Shown here in pieces: positions 479 through 21,171 of a stretch of 25,342 bases of DNA. The stretch covers positions 1 to 25,342 of IMG/VR virus record IMGVR_UViG_3300033182_000356. One strand, given 5' to 3'. Under the pieces are notes generated by a model. It made no database searches and was not told the DNA's origin. It saw only the letters and a program-made list of their open reading frames with translations. This DNA is from a virus. Numbering within the stretch: position 1 is the stretch's first letter; each line of letters begins with the position of its first letter. The position numbers and the translations under genes are program-made.

Positions 479-586
479 ATGGAACCCCAAACCCTTATCA
501 ACATTGGCTTCGCGTGCGCAGGCGTTTTTGGCGGCTGGTGGATGAAGATTATCTGGGACTCGATTCAGGGCTTGAAGGCTGATTGA
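479..586 (+). CDS. 35-residue single-TM protein
   Basis: A short ORF, ATG 479 to TGA 584-586, with a Shine-Dalgarno-like AAGG at 472-475 just upstream. The product MEPQTLINIGFACAGVFGGW... has one hydrophobic segment (about residues 5-21) followed by a basic/amphipathic tail ending KAD. Small membrane proteins starting ME-x-x-TL-N-GF and followed by a W-x-x-V/I-K-x-LK segment are frequent after tail genes in podoviruses. Their function is unknown; a holin or membrane-anchor role is possible. Its stop overlaps the next start (TGATG at 584-588), so the two are probably translationally coupled. Relatives I recall are longer, with a coiled-coil tail, so this may be a shortened form. Confidence 0.6.
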   Translation: MEPQTLINIGFACAGVFGGWWMKIIWDSIQGLKAD

Positions 587-864
587 TGGCGACTAAACCT
601 GTATCCAAAAAGAATATGGCTTGCAATAAGCCTAAGCGTACTCCCTCTCACCCTAAGAAATCTCACGTAGTGAAAGCCTGTGAGTTAGGTAAGGAAAAGG
701 TAATCCGCTTCGGTGAGCAGGGTGCTAAGACGGCAGGCAAGCCTAAGAAGGGTGAGTCTGAAGCTATGAAGAAGAAGCGTAAGAGCTTCAAATCCCGCCA
801 CGCTAAGAACATTAAGAAAGGCAAGATGTCTGCTGCATATTGGTCAGATAAGGTGAAATGGTAA
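586..864 (+). CDS. Small basic Lys-rich phage protein (DUF6321-like)
   Basis: 92 residues from ATG 586, which overlaps the previous stop by one base. GAAGG about 10 bases upstream can serve as ribosome binding site. The protein is very basic, with HPKKSHVVKAC, GGKEK-like/IRFGEQGAKTAGKPK, KRKSFKSRHAKNI and MSAAYWSDKVKW blocks. These match a small family found across marine T4-like and T7-like phages (DUF6321, by recall). The biochemical role is unknown. The high Lys/Arg content and the absence of membrane segments suggest binding to DNA or to an acidic virion component. Position in the late arm suggests a virion or packaging-related role, but this is inference. Confidence 0.75.
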   Translation: MATKPVSKKNMACNKPKRTPSHPKKSHVVKACELGKEKVIRFGEQGAKTAGKPKKGESEAMKKKRKSFKSRHAKNIKKGKMSAAYWSDKVKW

Positions 865-870
865 CCAGCC

Positions 871-1506
871 ATGCGCCGTGTAGCGGAGTCGATTGGCTGG
901 CTAATTATCGGATTGTTGATGGGTGGCCTTATGGCCGTATCTGTAGATGCCCTAGCTGAAACAGATCCTATCGTCACCAACAATACGAATACCAACTACA
1001 ACACGTCTCACACGACCAGTGACAGCACGGTAACGACCTTTAGTGATACGAAGAGCTCCGTCCGTACGGATGGCTCTATGACCACTACCATTAAGAGTCC
1101 TCCACCCTCTGCTATCGCTCCTCAATTCTCAGCAGGTCACGGTAATGATCTCTGTACGGTAGGAGCCTCCGGTGCAGTCCAAACACAGATCCTTGGTATC
1201 TCCGTAGGATCTACCTTCACTGAAGAGAATTGTTTGAGACTGAAGAATGCTAAGACCCTCTACGACATGGGGATGAAAGTAGCTGCAGTCTCTGTGATGT
1301 GCCAAGACCAAAAGGTCTTCACTGCAATGAAGATGGCAGGTACTCCTTGTCCGTACAATGGTCTCATAGGGGAAGAAGCTAGACTAGCGTGGGAAGCCCA
1401 TACTGCTGATGAACCTGAAGTACAAGAATCTGACAACGTCGAAGAGAAGCGCCTTAAAGCTCTCGGTATTATTGGTGGCGTGGTCGGCAGCTTCCTACTC
1501 TTTTGA
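871..1506 (+). CDS. Exported/membrane protein with N-terminal signal and C-terminal TM
   Basis: 211 residues. Residues 1-29 form a signal sequence or TM (hydrophobic 8-26, possible cleavage DALA|ET). A Thr/Asn/Ser-rich linker follows (30-75). A conserved-looking domain holds the TQILGISVGSTF, ENCLRLKNAKTLYDMG and GMKVAAVSVMCQD motifs with several cysteines. A second hydrophobic segment, ALGIIGGVVGSFLLF, forms the very C-terminus. Similar proteins sit in the same place in other marine podoviruses (recall). Topology would put the middle domain in the periplasm, tethered at one or both ends. The C-terminal TM is encoded by DNA that also encodes the signal peptide of the next gene in another frame. 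It is the first of five consecutive exported-type genes. Function unknown. Confidence 0.75.
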   Translation: MRRVAESIGWLIIGLLMGGLMAVSVDALAETDPIVTNNTNTNYNTSHTTSDSTVTTFSDTKSSVRTDGSMTTTIKSPPPSAIAPQFSAGHGNDLCTVGASGAVQTQILGISVGSTFTEENCLRLKNAKTLYDMGMKVAAVSVMCQDQKVFTAMKMAGTPCPYNGLIGEEARLAWEAHTADEPEVQESDNVEEKRLKALGIIGGVVGSFLLF

Positions 1507-2353
1507 TCAGTACACCTATGGCTACTCTAATAACGCTGCTGCTGGGGGCAGTACTTGGGGCATGTCTAGTTCTCTTTTTGCTGTACCTTCAGTTCAAGGA
1601 ATGGGCATTAACGGTGTCATCTATCGATACACTGCCACCAAAGACCCAGCAGACCCTTTCACAGTCAGCGTCCAGAATGAAGACGCCCTCAATGGGGGCT
1701 ACGTATTCCGTGAGACCGATGACTGGTCAGGAAGGCCGGGGGCCACAATCAACAAGCTTGTACCCCTCCCGTCCTACATACCTATTGACCGCTGGGGAAC
1801 GGGCTCCATCGAAACGACTGGAGTGGGTAGCGTAGAAGACCCCTCAGTCGTCTACACATACAAGATCGATCATTGTTTCGATCCTCAAAATGACCCGTCC
1901 TGCCCCGGCTATGAGGAGCCCTATATCCCGGCCCCTGTCGTGGTAGAGGTAGAGGAGATTGCTCTCCCAGAAGAGCCAGAGCCTTCTATAGACCTGTATG
2001 ACGCCTACCGTGATGAATTAATCCAGCAGGCCATGCAGAGAACCGATCCTAGCCTGTATGAGAGGGACGAGGAGCCCTCCAAAGACAAAGAAGGTGGGGA
2101 TGATGAGGGTGATCTAGAAACGGCTCTAGCGGCCTCTGAGAGCGCCTTAGAGATGGCTGTAGGACAGCTTGCCACGCTCAAGGCTATGAATACGGTCTCC
2201 CTCGGAGGCTACTATTCCAAGAGCATCCCGGGAGGGGTTTATCCGGATAGTTTAGTTCTTGTAGACGCTAAGATATCAGATAACCGCAGAGCCTTCCGAT
2301 CACTAGCAAATGACAGACTACACAGCCAAATGGTTGGGGAGCAATACAAATGA
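1409..2353 (+). CDS. Exported beta-rich protein with acidic and helical C-terminal region
   Basis: 314 residues. I chose ATG 1409 because it supplies a classical signal peptide: basic n-region (KYKNLTTSKRS), hydrophobic core LKLSVLLVAW, then SAASYS|FDQYTY. This puts 98 bases of overlap on the upstream gene; the SD candidate is GGGAAG at 1391-1396. The mature part starts FDQYTYGYSN and holds IYRYTATKDP, FRETDDWSG, PLPSYIPIDRWG and VVYTYKIDHCFDPQNDPSCPG, with two cysteines likely to form a disulfide. A proline/acidic stretch (about 170-235) follows, then an Ala-rich helix and a Tyr/Gly tail (YYSKSIPGGVYPDS). I recall homologues in marine phages with the same signal peptide, mature start and C-terminus. 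Function unknown; likely periplasmic, surface or virion-associated. Confidence 0.75.
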   Translation: MNLKYKNLTTSKRSALKLSVLLVAWSAASYSFDQYTYGYSNNAAAGGSTWGMSSSLFAVPSVQGMGINGVIYRYTATKDPADPFTVSVQNEDALNGGYVFRETDDWSGRPGATINKLVPLPSYIPIDRWGTGSIETTGVGSVEDPSVVYTYKIDHCFDPQNDPSCPGYEEPYIPAPVVVEVEEIALPEEPEPSIDLYDAYRDELIQQAMQRTDPSLYERDEEPSKDKEGGDDEGDLETALAASESALEMAVGQLATLKAMNTVSLGGYYSKSIPGGVYPDSLVLVDAKISDNRRAFRSLANDRLHSQMVGEQYK

Positions 2354-2838
2354 AGAAGATCGCATTGGCCCTGCTGATTGCCGGTACGGCACAGGCTGCT
2401 GAGATCCCGATTACGGGTAATGTCCAGTCTAAGTGCGTGATCAATACGGATGTCCCCGGGGTCTACGGGAACCCGTCTGCTGATGTTTTAAGCACGACTC
2501 CTGCCGATGGTGGTGTCCAGCCCGTGATCCGTTACGACGTATCTCTAGGCAATGCCTACACGGCTAAGATCACTACTCCTACCAGTTTCTCTACCAGCCC
2601 AGCTTTGGATGATACGGTAGTCTGGACAGGAGCTACTGAGGTATCTGAGGTATCAGATGCTGCCATGTCTGGTTATGAGGCAGCTAAGGTCACCTATGAT
2701 GCCACTACTGAATTTGATATGACGGAGACGGGCTCTACGTGGTTCAAGGTCTCCTCTACTGCTACGTACGGCTACGGTACGGCATTTCCGGGTGGCTCTT
2801 ATCGAGCCTTGGTAGTCGCTGAGTGCATCGCAAGGTAA
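2350..2838 (+). CDS. Secreted pilin/spore-coat-U-like protein
   Basis: 162 residues; ATG overlaps the previous stop (ATGA, 2350-2353), with GGGGAG upstream at about 2336-2341. Signal peptide MKKIALALLIAGTAQA|AE. The mature protein starts with a GNVQSKCVI strand, continues with a YGNP...PVIRYDVSLGNAYTAKIT region, and ends FPGGSYRALVVAECIA. A Cys near the N-terminus, a Cys near the C-terminus and a final G-x-Y-x-x-x-V-x-x-x-C strand give the outline of an Ig-like pilin or SCPU (spore coat U) domain with a disulfide. This is inferred from pattern, not a search. Close relatives appear in marine phages. It precedes a chaperone-like exported gene (2823), as a fimbrial subunit would. No donor-strand motif can be proved by eye. 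Confidence 0.72.
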   Translation: MKKIALALLIAGTAQAAEIPITGNVQSKCVINTDVPGVYGNPSADVLSTTPADGGVQPVIRYDVSLGNAYTAKITTPTSFSTSPALDDTVVWTGATEVSEVSDAAMSGYEAAKVTYDATTEFDMTETGSTWFKVSSTATYGYGTAFPGGSYRALVVAECIAR

Positions 2839-3209
2839 CACTTTTCTGCGCATTGTTTTGCGTTATTACGCACTTATCTGCGCATGAGATGACGCCAACC
2901 TATCCGTCGTTCTCACCGTCCTTTGTGGATGGTGTAGTGAAGGCGGAGATGAAGATCTTTAATAAGAGATCAGACGTCCAGTATTACTCGATAGGAGTGT
3001 TTGATAGTGAATGGGAGCCTATCCCGTTCGTATCCTCCTATAAGCTCATGAAGATTAACTATCTGGGGCACGTTAAGTTTGATGTGTATGTCCGGAAACA
3101 GGATGTTCAGAGAGCTACCTACATCTGCTCCATGTCTAAGCTACGGGGTGGTAATGATAAGAGGCCAATGGTTGCTACGAGAATATGCTCAAAGTTTCAG
3201 CAACCGTAG
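2823..3209 (+). CDS. Secreted small Ig-like protein, possibly chaperone-like
   Basis: 128 residues from GTG 2823, inside the end of the previous gene (16-base overlap). That start gives a full signal peptide (VTLFCALFCVITHLSA|HEM). The mature protein begins HEMTPTYPSF, then holds VVKAEMKIFNKRSDVQYYSI, GVFDSEWEPIPF, YLGHVKFDVYVRKQD and RATYICSMSK. The series of alternating hydrophobic strands with an early F-N-K-R turn resembles the first Ig domain of periplasmic pilus chaperones (PapD/FimC type), but it is a single domain of about 110 residues. I recall similar HEMTPTYP proteins in other marine phages, none with known function. The neighbours are all exported. The chaperone idea is tentative. 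Confidence 0.7.
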   Translation: MHRKVTLFCALFCVITHLSAHEMTPTYPSFSPSFVDGVVKAEMKIFNKRSDVQYYSIGVFDSEWEPIPFVSSYKLMKINYLGHVKFDVYVRKQDVQRATYICSMSKLRGGNDKRPMVATRICSKFQQP

Positions 3210-3595
3210 CCGTAGCAATGTTAGGGAGTTTAGCCTACGCCGATAACTCTTCACTTAACTTGCAGCTCCCTAGTGGGCCGACCAGTTACCAGTCCGATAA
3301 GTTTAGGGCAGGGGATCTGGACTGCTCCAATGCAATTGGGGGTGCTACTAACTTTGAATTAGGTGTTACGGGGATTGTGAACAATGCCGTTAGCCCATTC
3401 AAGAGTACAGACCCGGACAATCCTACATCCAAAGACATAGGGATGTACGCCCGTATCGTCATTCCACTCGATGCTCCTAGAGAGCGTATCAATTGCAATA
3501 CGCTTTATCAGCTAGAGCTTCAGAAGAAACGCCTTGAGGTGCTGAAGCTAGAGCAGGAGTTGAGGAACCTACAAGAATTAAGGTTTGAGAAATGA
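3185..3595 (+). CDS. Exported protein with C-terminal coiled coil
   Basis: 136 residues from ATG 3185, overlapping the previous gene by 25 bases. Signal peptide MLKVSATVAVAMLGSLAYA|DN. The mature N-terminal part (SLNLQLPSGPTSYQSDKFRA, DLDCSNAIGGATNFELGV) looks globular and beta-rich. YARIVIPL leads into a heptad-like helix rich in Glu/Leu/Lys (about residues 105-136: YQLELQKKRLEVLKLEQEL...). The arrangement resembles outer-membrane or periplasmic trimeric proteins with a helical stalk. Its stop overlaps the next start by ATGA (3592-3595). Part of the 871-3595 exported cassette. Function unknown; I recall relatives in marine podoviruses. Confidence 0.72.
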   Translation: MLKVSATVAVAMLGSLAYADNSSLNLQLPSGPTSYQSDKFRAGDLDCSNAIGGATNFELGVTGIVNNAVSPFKSTDPDNPTSKDIGMYARIVIPLDAPRERINCNTLYQLELQKKRLEVLKLEQELRNLQELRFEK

Positions 3596-4038
3596 GCGAT
3601 CTAGAGAGTGATCTCGATAAGCTAGAAGAGGCCAAAGATGCATTGGCGAAAAAGACGGTATCCATCCTTGGCTACAGGATTTCTTATACTGGGCTGGTGG
3701 TTGCTGGCGGTGTGGTTAGTAGCGCAATCGGTGCTCTCTATGCAGGGTTTCTGATGTATCAAAAAGTTGAGGGAATAGCGAACCTCGACGTCGGTGGATT
3801 TGAGCAGCGTATGGAGCTCATCGACCAGAAAATTGATAACCAAGACAAACTACTCACTTCGATTGAGACGAACCTCAGAGACGTCAAACAATTTACGTAT
3901 GACATTGAGAAGAGAGTGAATGACAAGCTCATCTACTTTGAAGGCAAGCTAGCCAAATCAGAGCTGAAGATGGAGATGGAACTGGAGAAGATGGAAGAGC
4001 GTATCCAGAAAGCCTTAGACAATCCGCTGGCTAATTAA
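3592..4038 (+). CDS. Membrane-anchored coiled-coil protein
   Basis: 148 residues; AAGG lies 8 bases before ATG 3592. A charged N-terminal helix (1-25) precedes one TM segment (about 32-55: SYTGLVVAGGVVSSAIGALY...). A long coiled coil follows (about 70-142, heptads of Leu/Ile with Glu/Lys), and the protein ends QKALDNPLAN, an end I recall from relatives in marine phages. With no signal peptide and a short charged N-terminus, it is probably an inner-membrane protein with a long soluble helix. It bridges the exported cassette and the holin/spanin-like genes. Function unknown; lysis or structural roles are both possible. Confidence 0.72.
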   Translation: MSDLESDLDKLEEAKDALAKKTVSILGYRISYTGLVVAGGVVSSAIGALYAGFLMYQKVEGIANLDVGGFEQRMELIDQKIDNQDKLLTSIETNLRDVKQFTYDIEKRVNDKLIYFEGKLAKSELKMEMELEKMEERIQKALDNPLAN

Positions 4039-4081: not shown

Positions 4082-4519
4082 ATGTTTGATCTTCCAGCAG
4101 AGGCAATTTCCATGATTGGATCTACCGCTCTCGGCGGTGTGATGAAGATGTGGGGCCAAGCTCAGGCAGATAGAGCTGAGCAGCAGAAGATGCTGCTGCA
4201 GCGCAATGACCAGATTGAGCGACAGGTTGAATCGGCCCGCCAGATGCAGAACCCTAACGCCGCATGGATACGTCGCTTTATCGTAGTCATGTCTCTCCTA
4301 GGCGGTTTGGGTATCGTATTTGCAGCACCTCTGCTCGGCCTCCCTACCAATATCCCGGTAGAAGTTACGGAAGGATTTAAGTTCCTATTTTTAGACTTCA
4401 CCAGCACAAACACAGTTTATGAGCAATTAAGTGGGTTTGTGACTCCAGAATGGCTTCCAGTAGCGATCATGAATATTATTGGTTTCTACTTTGGATCGGC
4501 TGCAATGCAGCGTAAGTGA
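4082..4519 (+). CDS. Two-TM membrane protein, holin candidate
   Basis: 145 residues with a strong ribosome binding site (AAAGGAG about 8 bases before ATG 4082). An amphipathic N-terminal region with AAMK-like/GGVMKMWGQ and Gln-rich helices (1-55) is followed by TM1 (about 66-86, FIVVMSLLGGLGIVFAAPLL), a loop with aromatic residues, and TM2 (about 123-141, EWLPVAIMNIIGFYFGSAAM). The W-x-R-R-F motif before TM1 and the G-x-Y-F-G-x-x motif in the last TM are typical of a phage membrane protein family placed near lysis genes. The following gene is a probable spanin, so a holin role is reasonable but unproven. Relatives have also been called structural proteins. Confidence 0.72.
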   Translation: MFDLPAEAISMIGSTALGGVMKMWGQAQADRAEQQKMLLQRNDQIERQVESARQMQNPNAAWIRRFIVVMSLLGGLGIVFAAPLLGLPTNIPVEVTEGFKFLFLDFTSTNTVYEQLSGFVTPEWLPVAIMNIIGFYFGSAAMQRK

Positions 4520-4869
4520 TGCGGTATATTGGAATACTCATATTAAGTATTGGCCTGTCTGGGTGTTCTGCACTCAATGCAGTCGGGAGCTTACTTCCCG
4601 GTAACGATGGAAGTGACATCAACACGAACGCCCAAGCAGGGGCTGAGAATACGCAGGCCGTAGTGTCTACGGAGCGTAAGGTAGAAGCCAAAGACAATGC
4701 CGTTGTAGAGACTGTAGAGGCTACCAAGTCCTACAAAGTTACGGGTACTCAGATCATTAATGAGGAAATACCCCCGTATGTCTGGCTCCTAATGATCCTA
4801 GGGTGGCTACTACCTAGCCCCGTAGAGATCTATAACGGGTTCCTACGGCTGTTGAGAGGGAAGGCATGA
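4519..4869 (+). CDS. Probable unimolecular spanin (u-spanin): lipoprotein with C-terminal TM
   Basis: 116 residues. ATG 4519 overlaps the previous stop (TGATG); GTG 4516 is an alternative start. The N-terminus MRYIGILILSIGLSGC is a lipoprotein signal with lipobox L-S-G-C, giving lipidation at Cys16. A polar, Asn/Ala/Glu/Val-rich linker (17-80) spans to one C-terminal TM (about 85-99, PPYVWLLMILGWLLP) and a basic tail ending RLLRGKA. Outer-membrane lipid anchor plus inner-membrane TM in one chain is the diagnostic layout of u-spanins (T1 gp11 type), which fuse the two membranes in the last step of Gram-negative lysis. No separate Rz/Rz1 pair is seen. The ATGA overlap with the next gene suggests coupling. 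Confidence 0.75.
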   Translation: MRYIGILILSIGLSGCSALNAVGSLLPGNDGSDINTNAQAGAENTQAVVSTERKVEAKDNAVVETVEATKSYKVTGTQIINEEIPPYVWLLMILGWLLPSPVEIYNGFLRLLRGKA

Positions 4870-5141: not shown

Positions 5142-5171
5142 TTGAAAGCTAGTGCCTTTTTCCGGTATAAT
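5142..5171 (+). promoter_or_regulatory. Sigma70-type promoter for the second late block
   Basis: TTGAAA (5142-5147) and a perfect TATAAT (5166-5171) are separated by 18 bases in the only sizeable gap (5130-5206) of the late arm. The predicted start is near 5178. It would drive the genes from the acyltransferase at 5207 to 16357. An inverted repeat flanks the -10: GCTAGTG at 5148-5154 and CACTAGC at 5177-5183, an operator-like arrangement. The host-type consensus suggests transcription by host RNA polymerase. Confidence 0.7.
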
Positions 5172-5195: not shown

Positions 5196-5210
5196 ATGCT
5201 TCATTCATGA
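5196..5210 (+). CDS. Four-codon leader ORF (MLHS) coupled to the acyltransferase
   Basis: ATG 5196 follows GAGAGG (5185-5190) by 5 bases, the best SD in this leader. It reads four codons to TGA 5208-5210, overlapping the acyltransferase ATG at 5207. This spacing suggests the acyltransferase is started by re-initiation. It may equally be chance, with the SD serving ATG 5207 at longer range. Confidence 0.3.
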   Translation: MLHS

Positions 5211-5638
5211 GGCTTTTCCCTATGAAAAAAGTCAATAATAGAACAGTCTTAGACGGACTGTTTCTTTTCAACGTTTCCGAAGAGCACCGGCTGTACTCCA
5301 TTTGGGAGTTTATGCACTACTTCGTGTATCCGCTCATGTACGACAAAGTGCGGATCTACTACGAAGATGAAAAGCCCGTGGCCCTCTTCACTTATGTCTT
5401 TCTCAGTCACGAGAGAGCTGAAGAATTCCTAAACGGTGACATTGTTCTGGATGAACAGGATTATGCTGCCGATGATGGGGATGAACTGTGGGGAATCGAA
5501 TTTATCGCTCCCTATGGGCACATTCGCAAAGTCTTTGCGGATATCAAACAGGAGTATTCGGAGAAGTACGGGAAACCCCGTCCCTTCTATTACCGGAGAC
5601 TCCATAAACCTTTCAACAAACGACGAGGTAAATTGTAA
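5207..5638 (+). CDS. HlyC-type toxin-activating lysine acyltransferase family protein
   Basis: 143 residues. HlyC/ApxC-family enzymes move a fatty acyl chain from acyl-ACP to lysines of RTX toxins in the cytoplasm. Matching features: SEEHR (His27 in the place of the catalytic His of HlyC/ApxC), then W33 and a conserved P42, KPVALFTYVFLS (the GEPVAYC-W-x-x-LS region), and DGDELWGIEFIAPYGH (residues 90-105). Glu98 stands where the family's catalytic Asp would be. A basic tail, FYYRRLHKPF, ends the protein. Length is close to the family's usual 140-175. ATG 5207 was chosen because a four-codon leader ORF (5196-5210) with a good SD overlaps it by ATGA; ATG 5222 is the alternative. No RTX toxin is present, so the substrate may be a phage protein, such as the adjacent virion protein (5638), whose start overlaps this stop. 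Confidence 0.75.
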   Translation: MRLFPMKKVNNRTVLDGLFLFNVSEEHRLYSIWEFMHYFVYPLMYDKVRIYYEDEKPVALFTYVFLSHERAEEFLNGDIVLDEQDYAADDGDELWGIEFIAPYGHIRKVFADIKQEYSEKYGKPRPFYYRRLHKPFNKRRGKL

Positions 5639-10539: not shown

Positions 10540-12794
10540 TGAGTGGCTTTGAAGATTTTGCTACCGGCTTCGCAGGAGGCTTTGCCCCGTCTTTTACCAA
10601 AGCGTTTGAGACGTCTCAGCTCAATTCCCGTGACAAGTTTAAGTTTAAGCTAGAGCAAGCGAAGACTGAATACGAGAATGGCCTAGAGAAGGCTAAGAAC
10701 CGTAAGACTGCTAGTCAGCTTGCTGAAGAATTCCAACAGCCAAAAGAGACTGCTGAGGTTATTGCTCAGTGGTTAGATTCTGGTCGTACTATCGATAAGA
10801 TCCGTGAAGATCTTGCTCGTCCTAATGTGTTTAAGCTGAACCCAGCTTGGCAGGATTGGGATACGAAGCGTAAGGCTAAGTCTGCTGAGGGTGCTCCTGT
10901 TGCAGCTACTGCAGAAGTATCTGTAGGGGCTCCTACTGTAGAGGGTGTAGAGCCCGTTAATCCTGTAGATGCTCAGATGTCACAACTTACTGCTGAGGCT
11001 CCTGTAGCGAAGACTCCAGAGCGTGAGACGATGGATGCTGAGAATATGACAGAGACTCAGGCAGACTTTGATCGCATCAATGCTCGTACTGCAGAAGAAG
11101 CTAAGCCTACCGAAGAACAGCCTAAGTTCCGTGGTGCGCTGGGTAATGTAGATCCAAAGGAACGTGATCGTATCTTCAATATCATGGGTATTACTGAATC
11201 TGAGTACCTCGATGTTATCGGTTACGGTAAGGGTTCTGATGAGCCTACTAAGTACATCTATACCCCGTCCGCTAAGAACAGCTTCCCATCTAACTGGAAT
11301 GAGGCTGTGATTGCTGAGGTAATGGCTTCTGACGAATACCGCTCTCTGCCAGATGAAAAGGCTCGTACTGCATACTTGATCAAGGTCAAGAACTCTATGG
11401 ACTCTGGCAAGGCTCCTACTAACGCAGAGACGCAGTCCTTCCAGAACCTGATTGTAAGTGATGCGTATGTTAACGCTGATCCTGCTACTCAAGAACAGAT
11501 GCTCATGGATCACAAGGATAAGTGGGCTAAGCTAGGTAAAACCAGTAGTGGTAATGAGACTGCTGAACAGCTCTCTCTCAACCTACTAACTAGCTCTGCT
11601 TCTTATATTAATGCTGCTCCTGAAGTTCAGCAGGAAATGCTACTTAGCCATAAGCAGAAGTTCTCTGGTACCGGCTCTAGCAAAGACACCCTGACTCAGA
11701 GTAGTTTTGCTGCACAACTTGCACAGGCTCGTCTAAACCTACTCTCCCCGGATCAGGCTACTCGTGAGAAAGCACGGGCTTGGTTGGAAGTAGAGAAACC
11801 TGTTCTACAGGCGGCATTGACTGAAGCTGCCGCTGCTACCAATAAGAATGAGCCTGCCATCTTCAACATCCGCTACCAAGGCTCAGACGGCAAAATCAAT
11901 GTCGTAGAAGCTACGAAGGGTGAGGATGGGTCTTGGATTCGTCTAGATGGGCAAGCACCGATCACTAAGGATCAGGTGAAAAGTGTCATGACACCGGAGT
12001 CTATGAGCGAACAGACTAAGACGCTACAGGCAGCAAGCACAGTCTACTCGGGTGTAACTGATAAGCAGTCTGCAGTCTCTGTTGCGGCTGCTGGTGCGTA
12101 TGAGCTAGATCGTATTGCAGCACGTACGCAGGGTGTACTGACCATTGCAGGCCCTACAGCAAGCTTCTTCACTGGTGCCAAGAACAACGTTAACGCCATC
12201 ATGGCTCTCATCCAAGAAGAGGGCCAAAAGGGCACGGATATGGAGACTGTTCTCCAGCTCATGCAAAATAAAATTGGTGAGCTGCAGTCTTCTAGTGACC
12301 TTACCACCGAGACTGCTAGTGCCTATCAAGAATTCTCTGCTGCCGTAATTCGTTACGTGTTCGCTGCTGGTAAGGCTCTAGGCCAGTCTGGTAACGGCTT
12401 CTCTAACAGCGACTACGAGAACGTATTCAAGTCCATCCAGAACTCTACCAGCTATGAGACCTTCTCTAACAACCTCCGTAACTTCACTAAGTCACAGATA
12501 CAGAGCCTAGATCAGGAAGTGAATACTGCTTCCGCTAACCCGCTTGTTGTATCAGCAATGGAGAAGAATAATCGAGAGTACCTAGAAGGTCTTCTGATCG
12601 ACTCCCGTACTCTGTTTGAACGTGACGGTCTCGCTAAACAGTATCAGTGGTCTCAGGGCCGAGCTAAGGCTATCCTTAAGGTCTTCCGCCCTGAAGACAT
12701 TACCGATGAAATCGTATCTCAAATGCCGGCTTTGGGTAACTTCCGTGAGTCAGGCGCTATTATCTTTACTGACGGATCAGGTGAGGCACTCTAA
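10539..12794 (+). CDS. Internal virion/ejection protein with triplicated helical repeat
   Basis: 751 residues, start overlapping the previous stop, with GAGGAAG about 8 bases upstream. The N-terminus (FEDFATGFAGGFAPSFTKAF) is a Gly/Phe-rich helix seen in related phage proteins. Residues 115-195 are a disordered Ala/Glu/Pro linker. Residues about 255-287, 298-330 and 344-376 are three copies of one ~33-residue helical repeat (SDEYRSLPDEKARTAYL, SDAYVNADPATQEQMLM, SASYINAAPEVQQEMLL). The last 350 residues are helical with a small Ala/Gly-rich region and no TM. The size and place before the largest late gene match T7 gp15-like ejection proteins. One copy of the repeat also appears in the next gene product. 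Confidence 0.72.
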   Translation: MSGFEDFATGFAGGFAPSFTKAFETSQLNSRDKFKFKLEQAKTEYENGLEKAKNRKTASQLAEEFQQPKETAEVIAQWLDSGRTIDKIREDLARPNVFKLNPAWQDWDTKRKAKSAEGAPVAATAEVSVGAPTVEGVEPVNPVDAQMSQLTAEAPVAKTPERETMDAENMTETQADFDRINARTAEEAKPTEEQPKFRGALGNVDPKERDRIFNIMGITESEYLDVIGYGKGSDEPTKYIYTPSAKNSFPSNWNEAVIAEVMASDEYRSLPDEKARTAYLIKVKNSMDSGKAPTNAETQSFQNLIVSDAYVNADPATQEQMLMDHKDKWAKLGKTSSGNETAEQLSLNLLTSSASYINAAPEVQQEMLLSHKQKFSGTGSSKDTLTQSSFAAQLAQARLNLLSPDQATREKARAWLEVEKPVLQAALTEAAAATNKNEPAIFNIRYQGSDGKINVVEATKGEDGSWIRLDGQAPITKDQVKSVMTPESMSEQTKTLQAASTVYSGVTDKQSAVSVAAAGAYELDRIAARTQGVLTIAGPTASFFTGAKNNVNAIMALIQEEGQKGTDMETVLQLMQNKIGELQSSSDLTTETASAYQEFSAAVIRYVFAAGKALGQSGNGFSNSDYENVFKSIQNSTSYETFSNNLRNFTKSQIQSLDQEVNTASANPLVVSAMEKNNREYLEGLLIDSRTLFERDGLAKQYQWSQGRAKAILKVFRPEDITDEIVSQMPALGNFRESGAIIFTDGSGEAL

Positions 12795-15700
12795 TGGCAG
12801 ATTCTTCTTTCAGCTTTCAGCTTGATCCAGATGCTCTGAATGCTCTTCTAACTCAGGTAGAGAAGGAGCAGAAGGAAGCTCGTGAAAACAAGCCATTCAC
12901 AGGTGCAGAGGACTACACTCAGGGGGGGTACTACAACGACCCTGACTGGGTTATGGATCGTATGGAGACTCCGATCACTGAGGATGAGAGAAAGAATCCT
13001 CTGATTGCTGAGATCACTAGCTCCCCGGAATACAAGGCCCTTAAGACGTCTCAAGAGCGTAATGCATTCCTGCAAAAGGCAGTTACCGAACGCAATATGC
13101 AGATGTTTGAAGAGCGTCCGGGTGAGATGCTCACTACGCTTGGTGATGGCATCAAGACAAAGCAATATAACGTTAAGCTAGAAAGCGACAACCCAGACTA
13201 CGATAAGAGTCAGCCTACCGGCCCTAATAATCAGCCTAAGCTGACTGAAGAAGTTAAGCGTACCTACATCGTACCTAAGCCGGGTGCAGAAAGCACTGGC
13301 TTCCAGCGTGTTGTTGGTGGGGGTGCTTTGGACGCTGTTCAGTCTATAGGCAATGTCGTAGAGGGTGCTACAGACTGGCTCGGTATTACTGATCCAGAAA
13401 CTGATTACGTGAAGGAAAACTTCCCTACCTATGCTCCTGCAAGTGAGATGGAGAAAGTAGGTCAGGAAATCGTATCTGTAATTGCTGGCTCTGTAGGTGG
13501 TGCTGCCCTGGCTAGCAAATTAGAGAAGACATATAAGTTCTCCTCTAAGATGGCTAACTACATCTCCAAGTTCTGGGATGATGCCAAGAAAGTAGATCCT
13601 AAGCAAGCTAAAGCGAAGCTAGAATTATTCCTTAAAGGCCTTGCTATTGAACGTGGGGCTAACATCGGTGGTGCTTTAACCATTAGTGATGAAGCCCAAC
13701 CTCTCGTTGGTGATAACGTAGCGGAAGCACTTGGCCTTGATCCGGACGACAACCGTCGTATCGGGCATTATATCGACAACGAAGTATTCTCCGTTGGTCT
13801 AAATGTCCTTGCTCGTGGTGTAGGTTTCACTTGGGATAAGCTTAAGGGCTTAGGCCGAGGTACCGGCTCAGTAGAAAAGGGTGCTATCGATAAGCGAGCC
13901 ATTGAAGCGGGTTTGCTTATCCTGAAAGAGATTGATCCTAACATCACCTCTGAACTGCCGGGTACGATCCTAGCAGAGCGTGCTCGTATCATGGGCCAAG
14001 TGATGATCGACAATAAGGACTTCCGTCTAGGTGTCCTTGGTCAGAAGCAGATGCCAGATGGCTCTGTAGTCGATCTCGTACCGGGTGGTTCTATTGACCT
14101 CGATAGTGCTACGGCTTTGATGCTAGGCGCTAAGGAGTATGCAGAGAAGGCCTATGGCTGGCGTAAGTCTGTCATGAGCCCTGAAGAATACAACAAGATG
14201 ATCAATGAGGTCGCTACTAAGATCTCTGAGAACATCGTAGGTCTGAAGCAAGGCCGTCGTGGTAGTGAGATTGTCCGTACGGGTGAGAGTGCTATCAATG
14301 CCCAAGGTGAGCGTGTACTAACCGAAGCTGCAGATGCAGCTATTCCGGGTGGTCAGCAGGCAGCAGAAGCCGGTGCTCAGCGTATGGCTCAGGACGTAGC
14401 TGACCCTGTCATTGAAGCTCGTCGTGCCGTTAATCAGGCAGAGGCCAATGTAGAAGCAGCCACTCGTATGAGTGAAGCTACGATGGATAAAGATGTCGTA
14501 GTGAAGATGCTTGAAGATGCTCGGGCTAAGAGCGCTCTAGGCGATACTGCAGCAGAGAAGCAGACATTCCATCAGCTAACCGGTGAAGACCTCTATCGTG
14601 GTTGGTCTCATTCTCGTGCAGCCTATAAGGAAGCCTTTGATAAGCTACCTGATGATATCCCTGTAGATATTGAAGACTTTGTTAGCCAGATCCAGACCCT
14701 TGCCCAGCGCACTAATTTCTTTGATGACATTACTCCAAATGTAATGCGGTCAGATCCGTTTGCTCGTACCCTCAGTGAATTCCGCCCCAAGAAAGTGGGC
14801 GAAGAAATCGTTGAGATCGAGGGTAAGGAAGTAACTCAGCCCATCATGGAGACGATGGAAGAAGTTGTGGCCCGTATGGAGTCACAGGGCTTTGACCTCA
14901 AGGCTCTCTACGCCAACCTACGCCCACAAATCTCCCGTAAGATCCAGCAGCTCACTGACCTTGGTGAAGATCCTTCTGCTCTGATTAGATTGAAGGGTGT
15001 CATCGATGAATATGCAGAGAGCTCAGGGCATCCTGAATTCCGTGCTGCAATGGATCTCTACGAAGACTACGCTAGCACCTATCTACGTACGGAACCTCTC
15101 CGTCAGTACGATGCCGCTGCTAAGAATATCGTAGAGTCTGTGAAGGTAGCTCCGGGTGTCGTTAAGGGCCAAGAAGACGCCTACGAGATCGGTATGCGAG
15201 CTCTGCATATGTCAGAGCAGGCAGCTACTCCGGGCTATATGGAGGCCTTCCTGAACGCCCTCACTAAGTCTCGTGGCGGTAACGTAACCGATGAGATGGC
15301 ACAAGCCTACGTCAGCATGGCTGTGAAGGGCATTACTCGTATGTCTAGCTCTGGTGTTCCTGTGAATGCAGAAACGGTTAAGGCAGCAGTACAGCCGTTC
15401 CTAGATCAAATCCGTGCTACTCGCCCAGATGCAGTCAAGATGTTTGAGGACACTGTCCGTAATCTAGAGATGGTGGAATCCGGTCTGGCAGACGCTAAGG
15501 TAGCCTTTAAGGAGGCTGAAGCTAACTATCAGGTTGTTCTGAAAGAAGCTCAGGAAGACGCTGCTAGTAAGTTCGTACGTGGTCTTGAGGGCCCAGCGCC
15601 TAAGCCGTTCGAGGATACGAGCACTGTCTGGAAGAGTATCTTTGATGCTAAGGATGCCCCTGAGCAGATTGATGAGCTCATGCGTCGTGCAGTCTACGCC

Positions 15701-18617: not shown

Positions 18618-18622
18618 TTATC
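18542..18622. repeat. Long imperfect inverted repeat at the nrdJ/downstream-ORF junction
   Basis: Left arm (about 18542-18562) and right arm (about 18601-18622) pair as GATAAAT/ATTTATC, CCCCG/CGGGG and CGGGAA/TTCCCG with a small bulge and a 2-base mismatch, about 18 pairs in all. Each arm also contains the small self-complementary CCCGAACGGG. On the minus-strand mRNA the ATG at 18617 lies inside the stem, while the SD lies just outside it. There is no T-run, so a simple terminator is unlikely. Confidence 0.6.
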
Positions 18623-20546
18623 AGCCTCCGATATCTACGACTTCACAGGCATTCCCTGAGCAGGCCAGAGTCTGGCTACCCTTGGTGTTATCCTCTTTTT
18701 CGTAGTCACTGAGCTTCGACCAATCGATCTTAGCAGGCATGGTAGCCAGCAGAGCATCGTATTCTTCCTTAGAGCAGTCCTGATAGGGGGCCTGATCGTA
18801 GGTATGATCAGAGAACGGTAGGAAGCTGATACCACTAATCTCATCAAAGTGCTTGTAGACCCAAGAGCCTACTTCCATCCACTCATGATCTTTCACAGAG
18901 ATGGTCACAGACGGCTTATGCTCACACCAGTGACGCTGGTACAGCAGCCATAGCTTGAGCTGGTCAATAGCACTCAGATCCTTACGACATACAGCATTCT
19001 CAGGAGCCTTCTTCGGGAAGGAGAAGACTACCGTCGTATCTGGGCTGTTAATTTCATCTTCACACGGGATACCCTGATCAATCATGAACTGAGTCAGAGG
19101 ATCCTTCTTATCACCACGTACCGTACGGATGTAGTACGGATTATGGCGGGTGTGGATGCCGCTAGCAGCGTCTACAAGCTGAGATACCGTACCAGAGGGC
19201 TTCACACAGGTGATTGCAGCAGACTGCTGGATACGCAGGGTAGCAGACATCTCCTGATTGACGGTTACGGCATGCTGACGGAGCTCTTCTAACCAACGCT
19301 CTGAGTCACAGCACTTGCTGAGCAGGTGGTGATCCATGATACCGGTCATAGAGACGCCTAGGAGGCGTTCCTCTTCCGTATTCTTCTGCCAGATCTTACG
19401 CAGGTACGGGAAGTGGGTCAGGGTAGACTGTATGGTGCCTAAAATAGTGGCAATCTCTACCTTATCCTTCAGAGAGGCCAGATTGTCATCTGCTCGGATC
19501 ACAACCTCAGTCAGGTTACAGAACTGGTAGGGACGCAGGATGATCTCAGAGCATGGATTCGTACCAAACTCAAAATGAGGATCACGACGCTCATTCTTAG
19601 CTGCCTGTACCTGTGAGGCGGAGCGACTGAAGATACCACGCTCACCCGACTTAGACTCTACCAGAGCCAGCCACTCACGCATGAAGGTTTCCATGTCTGG
19701 TTTCTCTTCGTAGGCTACGGAGTTGTTGGCAAGAGAGCGCTGGGCATTGTCATACCACCACGTACCGCTCTTAGCGTGACGCATACGGTCATCACCAAGG
19801 TCAGACAGGGAGATCATGGCAGAGCGGCGTACGCCCCCTACAACAACGATCTGACCTACCTTACACATGATGTCGTGGCACTCTAGGCTAGTCAGCTTAC
19901 GGCCAGTAGCCTGACGGAAGGTCTCAATGGTGAAGCGGAAAAGGCTTACCAGAGGCTCTGGGCCAGAGGCACGTCCACCAAAGGTCTTTAGACGGGCACC
20001 TGCAGGGCGTACTTTAGAGACGTCCCATTTCGGTACTTCACCAGACCACAACAGGGCCAGTAACTGGCGGAAGGATTTAGCCCAACCTTCCTTGCTGTCC
20101 TTGACCACGATAGTCGTATCGGAATCAAACATTTCATCCGGTATTTCAGGGAGCTTCTTCACGTACTTCTCTTCCACAGAGAAGCCTACGCCCGTACCAC
20201 ACAGCAAGATGAACATGGCTTCATCAAATGCTTTAGGGTCATCTACAGGCAGGTAGGAGCAGTTGTACCCTGCAGTATTGTCACGCTCTAGTGCCTTACC
20301 GGCAGTCATGAGAGCTCGCATAGAAGGCATCACATTAAACTCTAAGATCGCCTGACGAATGCGTTCCACCAATTCCTCATTCAGGGTCAGTCCCATGTTC
20401 TCAAGGACGGACGTCATCATGAAGTTGACGTACCGATCTACAGTCTCAGGCCAGTCTTCACGACGATCCTCACTCGACAACCAGCGGCTATAGCGAGACT
20501 TATAGATGAATTCCTCGTAATCACTTGGGAAGTATTGTTTGTTCAT
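18621..20546 (-). CDS. nrdJ: Adenosylcobalamin-dependent (class II) monomeric ribonucleotide reductase
   Basis: 641 residues from ATG 20546 (GGAAG about 9 bases upstream; the longer open frame has no better start). Reduces ribonucleotides to deoxyribonucleotides for phage DNA synthesis, using a radical from coenzyme B12. Visible motifs: YNCSYLPVDDP (Cys96, radical-pair thiol), CGTGVGFSVEEKYVKKLPEI, GQIVVVGGVRRSAMISLSD, TNPCSEIILRPYQFCNLTE (Asn330, Cys332, Glu334, Cys343) and KPSGTVSQLVDAASGIHTRH. The C-terminal redox pair is Cys629/Cys634 (ACSGNACEVVD). Spacing (408/410/419 and 731/736 in the Lactobacillus enzyme) fits the monomeric triphosphate-reductase type, somewhat shorter than the 739-residue model. 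No thioredoxin/NrdH-like gene is adjacent. The host must supply or import B12. Confidence 0.93.
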   Translation of the reverse strand: MNKQYFPSDYEEFIYKSRYSRWLSSEDRREDWPETVDRYVNFMMTSVLENMGLTLNEELVERIRQAILEFNVMPSMRALMTAGKALERDNTAGYNCSYLPVDDPKAFDEAMFILLCGTGVGFSVEEKYVKKLPEIPDEMFDSDTTIVVKDSKEGWAKSFRQLLALLWSGEVPKWDVSKVRPAGARLKTFGGRASGPEPLVSLFRFTIETFRQATGRKLTSLECHDIMCKVGQIVVVGGVRRSAMISLSDLGDDRMRHAKSGTWWYDNAQRSLANNSVAYEEKPDMETFMREWLALVESKSGERGIFSRSASQVQAAKNERRDPHFEFGTNPCSEIILRPYQFCNLTEVVIRADDNLASLKDKVEIATILGTIQSTLTHFPYLRKIWQKNTEEERLLGVSMTGIMDHHLLSKCCDSERWLEELRQHAVTVNQEMSATLRIQQSAAITCVKPSGTVSQLVDAASGIHTRHNPYYIRTVRGDKKDPLTQFMIDQGIPCEDEINSPDTTVVFSFPKKAPENAVCRKDLSAIDQLKLWLLYQRHWCEHKPSVTISVKDHEWMEVGSWVYKHFDEISGISFLPFSDHTYDQAPYQDCSKEEYDALLATMPAKIDWSKLSDYEKEDNTKGSQTLACSGNACEVVDIGG

Positions 20547-20602
20547 TGTTTGTTCTTCCAAAAAATAAAAAAAAAATAAACGACTATCGCTAACCTCAGC
20601 GA
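20547..20602 (-). promoter_or_regulatory. Leader of nrdJ: small hairpin and long T-tract
   Basis: On the minus strand a 5-base-pair hairpin TCGCT-GAGGTT-AGCGA (20602-20587) covers the stop of the 2OG-oxygenase gene. A T-rich tract follows (20580-20561, including ten T in a row at 20576-20567) before the nrdJ SD. It looks like a weak, leaky terminator or attenuator. No cobalamin-riboswitch elements are visible. Confidence 0.4.
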
Positions 20603-21171
20603 AGAGGGGCCTTACCATGAAACCATGCAACCACTGCTCGTCTGGTGCCCCAAAGTACAGGCCAAGCAAAGTGTGGGAGATGGGAAGGGAATACCGTCAT
20701 TACTCCTAGCTGACGGCTCATACAGCGGCGGTTTCCTTCCAGACCACCACGGCTATTCGTGTACACACTTGTACATCCACCTACGTAGTCCGTAGGCTTA
20801 GAGAGTTGGATCACTGCAGTCAGTTTCCGGGTAGCTACGCTATCATCCCCATTGTCTACGTGAGTGGCATAGAAATGACCCATCTTGTAGGTCAGGAATT
20901 GTAGGGGCTCTTCGTAGCCATCAAGTTGAAACTGGAACGTCTTATCGTTCACGTCTCGTACGGCTTTGCTGATGATGCTGTGTAGCCAATTGTTGTGAGG
21001 GGCAGGGTACATCCAGCGTACCTCACAGTTGCGTGATTTCCGCATTTTAGAGCTTTTGCCTGAAATGAGCACAGTTCCATCGATCATATCCTCTTCAAGA
21101 GACTGCTTAACCGCTCGGCTACACTCATGCTCATTGAGCAGAGGTACAGTGAAGAATTGCTGTATATGCAT
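20596..21171 (-). CDS. 2-oxoglutarate/Fe(II)-dependent oxygenase (PiuC/prolyl-4-hydroxylase-like)
   Basis: 191 residues from ATG 21171, overlapping the DUF3310 stop, with GGGAGG 6 bases upstream. Double-stranded beta-helix features: GHFYATHVDNGD (iron ligands His104 and Asp106), KLTAVIQLSKPTDYVGG (core strands), VFPSHLPHFAWPV (distal His, probably 167) and GTRRAVVAWFHG (Arg177, 2-oxoglutarate binding). These are the HxD...H and R signatures of the 2OG-Fe(II) oxygenase superfamily (PF13640 type). The N-terminal portion LLNEHECSRAV is typical of that group. Phage members are common; substrates are unknown, and hydroxylation of a protein or nucleotide is possible. It sits between DUF3310 and NrdJ in the nucleotide-metabolism block. 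Confidence 0.82.
   Translation of the reverse strand: MHIQQFFTVPLLNEHECSRAVKQSLEEDMIDGTVLISGKSSKMRKSRNCEVRWMYPAPHNNWLHSIISKAVRDVNDKTFQFQLDGYEEPLQFLTYKMGHFYATHVDNGDDSVATRKLTAVIQLSKPTDYVGGCTSVYTNSRGGLEGNRRCMSRQLGVMTVFPSHLPHFAWPVLWGTRRAVVAWFHGKAPLR

Follow-up and report, generated by a model that had tools for sequence, protein, structure and literature searches.

A Sec-exported six-gene cassette in the late region of marine phages encodes a PapD-like protein and probably acts on the host envelope

The Llp protein of phage T5 is a receptor-blocking lipoprotein that causes superinfection exclusion. The chaperones of chaperone-usher pili have two immunoglobulin-like (Ig) domains, and those of the FGL type carry an F1-G1 disulfide. 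Ig-like folds are also common on virions. Pelagiphages carry curli secretion modules, for which superinfection defence and sibling capture have been proposed (PMC9599517, PMC7029224). Here, we compare these systems with a cassette of six genes, g1 to g6, located in a 25.3 kb virus fragment of IMG/VR (record IMGVR_UViG_3300033182_000356, positions 1 to 25,342), the whole of which is referred to as the window. We tentatively interpret the cassette as a Sec-exported module in the late region of virulent phages, in which g3 and g4 would form a subunit and chaperone pair on an inner-membrane scaffold and change the surface of the infected cell. This is the reading we favour, although we rate it as somewhat short of probable. 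The cassette genes in the window are:

871-1506, plus strand: g1, signal or anchor sequence, linker rich in Thr, Ser and Asn, highly conserved domain with Cys at about residues 78-175, weak transmembrane (TM) segment at the C-terminus
1409-2353, plus strand: g2, probable signal peptide, N-terminal part rich in beta structure, then an acidic linker and a conserved C-terminal segment that ends HExMVxMQY
2350-2838, plus strand: g3, predicted exported Ig-like, pilin-like subunit with an N-terminal motif hyd-x-hyd-x-G-x-hyd...C
2823-3209, plus strand: g4, GTG start, predicted exported single-domain PapD-like (Ig) protein
3185-3595, plus strand: g5, predicted exported protein with a Cys, two amphipathic strand-like segments, a Cys and a helix-like C-terminal tail
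3592-4038, plus strand: g6, N-terminal TM anchor and coiled coil, near-invariant C-terminus ...QRALDNPLAN

The six open reading frames (ORFs) lie on one strand and every gene overlaps its successor, g5 and g6 included, with 98 bases shared by g1 and g2. The stretch 871-3595 shows neither a promoter-like site nor a plus-strand terminator-like site. A preliminary description of the locus had proposed five overlapping genes with Sec-type starts at 871, 1409, 2350, 2823 and 3185. All five were found on the plus strand, and in the window each has an N-terminus made up of a positively charged n-region, a hydrophobic core and then a small-x-small site. Applied as a crude signal rule to 136 distinct full cassettes, these features were recovered in 94% of g1, 37% of g2, 97% of g3, 92% of g4 and 99% of g5 sequences, and in 16% of 1,198 genes flanking cassettes. 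The case for export of the products, predicted from these N-termini, is thus very strong for g1, g3, g4 and g5, whereas g2 is the weakest of the five and only probably exported because of its low score on the rule. Among the other plus-strand late ORFs checked, an N-terminal membrane or signal segment was predicted only in holin-like and lipoprotein genes. The gene at 3592 encodes a single TM segment at about 33-51, in line with its earlier description as a membrane-anchored coiled coil. The wording that the products are small and beta-rich or coiled-coil stands for g3 and g4 (structure models) and for g6, the three products for which it was covered.

Relatives of the cassette genes are abundant in viral contigs, with at least 594 for g1, 591 for g5, 543 for g4 and 521 for g3. 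The loci analysed stem from scans with g1, g4 and g5, complemented by isolates and binned contigs, and the best 80 per scan were retained, hence close relatives of the query are over-represented. The genes g1-g2-g3-g4-g5-g6 occur in this order and on the same strand in 173 loci. A further 67 loci are interrupted by the end of the contig or locus, 17 are real variants, and no locus among those analysed has a different gene order. Many loci are repeats of one contig, leaving the 136 distinct full cassettes. From g1/g2 to g5/g6, the junctions overlap in 99, 48, 72, 79 and 57 percent of loci, which are upper bounds because the first possible start was taken for each gene. The flanks of the 136 cassettes contain 1,441 genes in 594 families, 362 of which are found in a single locus. 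Upstream, the commonest neighbors are tail fibres (42 loci), and downstream they are several unrelated families of holin-like proteins and endolysins. The expectation that the genes are kept together and in order across phages was hence confirmed in mostly different surroundings, and g6 is a sixth member of the cassette. Such an unbroken exported set, retained as a unit across phages, makes action on the envelope most likely, as had been suggested. Pairwise distances among g1, g2, g3, g5 and g6 correlate at 0.37-0.67, and g4 is looser (0.07-0.58 with the other cassette genes). Correlations of the cassette are 0.23-0.33 with the tail fibres and 0.01-0.16 with the upstream gene g0, listed below, although some holin and endolysin neighbors correlate with the cassette as strongly as cassette genes do among themselves. 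At the corresponding position, the cassette is missing from the closest isolate, Roseobacter phage CRP-212, and it is therefore optional in phages. The lysozyme of CRP-212 is 63% identical and its internal virion protein 30%. A scan of genome contigs produced 15 g1 matches on contigs binned to mixed taxa yet phage-like in appearance.

The protein g4 has a single domain of about 108 residues past the signal. The AlphaFold model (predicted local distance difference test, pLDDT, 89.9) has a seven-stranded Ig-like domain and aligns to residues 1-116 of FimC-type chains. The top six Foldseek matches are all chaperones of chaperone-usher pili (E 1.5e-4 to 3.1e-4), with DraB, FaeE and FimC as leading names at a probability of 1.0. 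VIA-align gave Z scores of 10-11 to Caf1M, FimC and SafB over about 100 aligned residues, at a root-mean-square deviation of about 3-4.5 Å. Two invariant cysteines are located in the final two strands with a spacing of 18-21 residues in 136/136 sequences, resembling the disulfide of the FGL chaperones. Against a viral structure library, the best matches of g4 are unnamed. The model of g3 (pLDDT 90.4) has the PapGII pilin domain as its top Foldseek match (E 3.3e-3), and the first matches include the pilins PapG, FimG, CsuA/B and CfaB (E 3e-3 to 2e-2). All 136 g3 sequences have Gly at -14, as do FimA, FimI, FimF, FimG and FimH of E. coli K-12, and an invariant Cys is found at -4. The N-terminal pattern IPITGNVQSKC is comparable to TITIRGYVRDNGC of FimF and occurs in its strict form in 83 of the 136. 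Both the Gly at -14 and the N-terminal pattern agree with a pilin-like character as judged from the sequence, and g3 has Ala instead of Tyr at its penultimate position.

The cassette hence resembles chaperone-usher pili in several respects. The predicted fold of g4 is like that of the N-terminal domain of the chaperones, though MSP and ASH domains score about as well in VIA-align, g3 is weakly nearest to pilins by Foldseek rank and has both the Gly at -14 and a strand motif ahead of its first Cys near the N-terminus, and the two genes are adjacent. It also differs from them, as g4 lacks a second Ig domain, g3 ends in a penultimate Ala, and neither PF00345 (PapD_N) nor the K-12 pilins are matched in sequence. 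PF00345 had no match in g4 or in 11 phage records. The outer-membrane usher PF00577 had no match at E<=1 in the same 11 records (including 8 contigs of 75-174 kb, Achelous and D93; some are perhaps fragments and a host usher is possible), with a positive E. coli control. The cassette is not a chaperone-usher system, because two defining features fail: the 11 records have no usher or PapD_N match and g4 has a single domain. An appendage, one of the structures raised in the preliminary description, gains partial support from the PapD-like chaperone domain of g4 and the weak pilin likeness of g3, and loses support from the lack of a detected usher and of a fibre. Formulated as an usher-less appendage, g3 would polymerise by donor-strand exchange and oligomers of g5 would replace the usher, leading to aggregation or sibling capture. 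The pilin-like motif and Gly of g3, the PapD-like g4 and the amphipathic strand pair of g5 are consistent with such a fibre, but there is a single pilin-like gene, no usher was found and no fibre was seen. We consider such an appendage unlikely. A related proposal, doubtful yet rated above the appendage, is an usher-less machine specific to phages and spreading as a unit among unrelated phages. Here, g4 would load g3 by donor-strand complementation, oligomers of g5 would serve as exit or seat in the outer membrane, and g6 together with g1/g2 would couple the machine to the inner membrane, so that a surface structure is built on infected cells.

The strand alternation of the two g5 segments is 3.7 and 4.4, compared to 2.5 for 8-mers drawn at random from the same proteins, which is a weak test since the segments were chosen by a sequence pattern. 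A hairpin pore formed by g5 is a conjecture from sequence. The protein g1 corresponds to phrog_20531 (unknown function), g2 has no Pfam or PHROG match, and g6 has NPL near its C-terminus in 128/136 sequences. Searches of g1-g5 and their jumbo-phage and Vibrio relatives against Pfam, as well as of g1-g4 and relatives against PDB sequences, yielded nothing convincing. Distant kinship between g1 and g5, and between g3 and g4, was rejected after comparisons found no relationship.

Curli modules of phages (type VIII; CsgG/CsgF; PMC9599517, PMC7029224, PMC9004378) are similar in being exported multi-gene modules of unrelated marine phages with a proposed role at the envelope, and in being absent from some relatives. 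The folds of g3 and g4 are unlike curli proteins though, and CsgG, CsgF and curlin repeats had no Pfam match at E<=1 among g1-g5 and neighbors. The literature searched contained no PapD-like or pilin-like pair in phages, while curli modules did appear.

By gene content, the cassette is best described as a composite of g1-g2-g6 and g3-g4-g5, each also found apart. The set g1-g2-g6 occurs without g3-g5 in the Pelagibacter phages HTVC115P, HTVC023P, HTVC202P and Mosig, the Roseobacter phages CRP-207 and CRP-810, and two uncultured podoviruses. In these phages, the g2-like exported gene is larger or different and the membrane coiled coil terminates in NPL. The g2 C-terminus is discernible in HTVC115P, weakly (E 6e-4). 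Among these phages, the g6 profile matches only HTVC115P, CRP-207, CRP-810 and MW202481, and g6 in the remaining ones was assigned by topology and the NPL end. In phage isolates, genes of the set carry the labels OmpA family, TonB or lysozyme, to which the sequences lend no support. The triplet g3-g4-g5 occurs without g1, g2 and g6 in about 180 Vibrio phage records, in the same order and with similar overlaps. Carriers include the T5-like pVp-1 (genes 0077-0079) and Thalassavirus, others being about 58-84 kb, and in pVp-1 and Achelous the triplet directly follows two large tail-region genes. Vibrio phage 1.205.O has an unannotated g4 (MG592575.1, about 46960-47316), as shown by tblastn and the reading frame. 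A permuted order g4-g5-g3 is found in Erwinia phage pEp_SNUABM_01, the Klebsiella jumbo phages YC1, Miami and FBKp24, and Vibrio 2.275.O, with g5 located between a small exported two-Cys protein and an exported protein of 157-167 amino acids. Profile comparison supports homology of g3 (96%) and g4 (81%) to the Vibrio set and of g5 to the jumbo-phage set (HHalign 98.9%, E 2e-17). The assignment of g3 and g4 in the permuted sets relies only on synteny, size, signal and cysteines, and profiles found no connection between the jumbo g3 and g4 and the Vibrio set. The Klebsiella jumbo triplet forms its own operon, with an annotated terminator after the triplet in Miami and an annotated promoter before the region in FBKp24.

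The genomic neighborhood raises the question of lysis. The genes flanking the cassette in the window are:

583-864, plus strand: g0, small Lys-rich protein, a neighbor in 19/136 loci and not phylogenetically tied to the cassette
4082-4519, plus strand: holin-like membrane protein, from one of several unrelated families downstream, outside the cassette
4516-4869, plus strand: u-spanin-like lipoprotein whose C-terminal segment is hydrophobic (lipobox LSGC; phrog_1804 Rz-like spanin, E 1.9e-10), outside the cassette

As a lysis accessory, the module would span the envelope and help to break the outer membrane or time its opening, either as an alternative to spanins or as a regulator. The marine cassette often directly precedes several unrelated holin-like or endolysin families, a lysozyme or M15 peptidase is nearby in several g1-g2-g6 isolates, and the Vibrio triplets are upstream of a holin and an M15 endolysin. 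An Rz/Rz1-like pair is present in the cassette-free CRP-212 and absent from the window, and a lipoprotein occurs within 4 kb downstream in only 10/74 loci. The protein g6 is similar to an i-spanin with its N-terminal TM and coiled coil, encoded late and near holin and endolysin genes as spanins (Rz/Rz1, u-spanin) are. No lipobox was found in g1-g6 though, and separate spanin-like genes coexist with the cassette, both in the window, where the lipoprotein at 4516 is a probable u-spanin, and in 3/6 long cassette phages, which encode o-spanin-like lipoproteins elsewhere. A simple spanin replacement is weakened by the existence of these genes. The triplet of the Klebsiella jumbo phages stands as an isolated operon at a distance from lysis genes. 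A direct part in lysis, raised in the preliminary description, is thus so far unsupported, and we regard a lysis accessory as rather unlikely, if still the foremost of the alternatives considered. In CRP-212, an unannotated lipoprotein at 12788-13099 (minus strand), overlapping gp24 right after the lysozyme, is likely the Rz1 partner missing from the record annotation.

Virion decoration would require that the exported proteins be added to particles after their release or attach to the tail at the cell surface. Tail-fibre genes adjoin the cassette and Ig-like folds would fit a virion location, but signal peptides would divert the products from virion assembly in the cytoplasm. A virion part is argued against by this Sec-type export. 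The cassette is also optional in a close relative and, as a weak point, gp270-272 are not named in the main text of the paper on the FBKp24 virion structure. We consider decoration very unlikely. We rate both virion decoration and a spanin substitute below a change of the surface. Given the separate spanin-like genes and the Klebsiella triplet operon away from lysis genes, a change of the envelope or surface is therefore favoured. Under the favoured reading, g4 would act in the periplasm as a donor-strand or capping partner of the pilin-like g3, and g5, with its strand pair and helix, might together with the inner-membrane parts g6 and g1/g2 provide a scaffold or outer-membrane seat displaying g3. 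The assembled structure would alter the surface of the infected cell late in infection. By analogy with the proposals for phage curli, the most likely use would be superinfection or readsorption control by blocking the adsorption of competing or progeny phages, followed by sibling capture as the next option. The presence of tail-fibre genes ahead of the cassette in many loci speaks for this reading. T5 Llp offers a parallel as an exported phage protein encoded beside the receptor-binding region of a T5-like phage, and differs in being a single protein, compared to three to six proteins without a lipobox in the cassette.

Several results weigh against an envelope module with a chaperone and subunit pair. 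MSP and ASH domains, which belong to the same PapD-like superfamily, tie with g4 at a VIA Z of about 10, and because of these equal scores a chaperone role of g4 rests on fold and context. Profile comparisons found no match between g4 and FimC or between g3 and the K-12 pilins. The best VIA-align Z of g3 is 7.7, to a staphylococcal adhesin, with no pilin family among the matches listed. In view of this score and the modest Foldseek E-values, the modelled g3 resembles pilins weakly, and the likeness should be taken as a lead. Neither an usher nor any other known exporter was found in the 11 phage records.

Other features of the window were also recorded. At 1-466, a tail-fibre-like end is divided over two frames (ORF 1-210 and a Gly-rich ORF 77-466), which may reflect a sequencing error, a frameshift or a real junction. 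A HlyC-type lysine acyltransferase (PF02794, E 1e-16) is encoded at 5207-5638, preceded by a sigma-70-like promoter match (11/12) at 5142-5171, and HTVC115P has an annotated toxin-activating acyltransferase gene about 2.3 kb downstream of its g6-like gene. Genes right of about 16.4 kb lie on the opposite strand, including a large ribonucleotide-reductase-like gene at 18621-20669 (minus strand). A reductase gene is also present in CRP-212, close to its g18 homologue.

In metagenomic viral contigs the cassette is very common, and about 200 phage records contain its core triplet. No Pfam family exists for any of the cassette genes, and several relatives have been given questionable names, including lysozyme, OmpA and TonB. 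If the chaperone and pilin-like interpretation is true, tailed phages would carry a surface-structure system that is new to the literature searched and independent of phage curli. The effects of phages on the host envelope late in infection would then become testable in culturable Vibrio phages.

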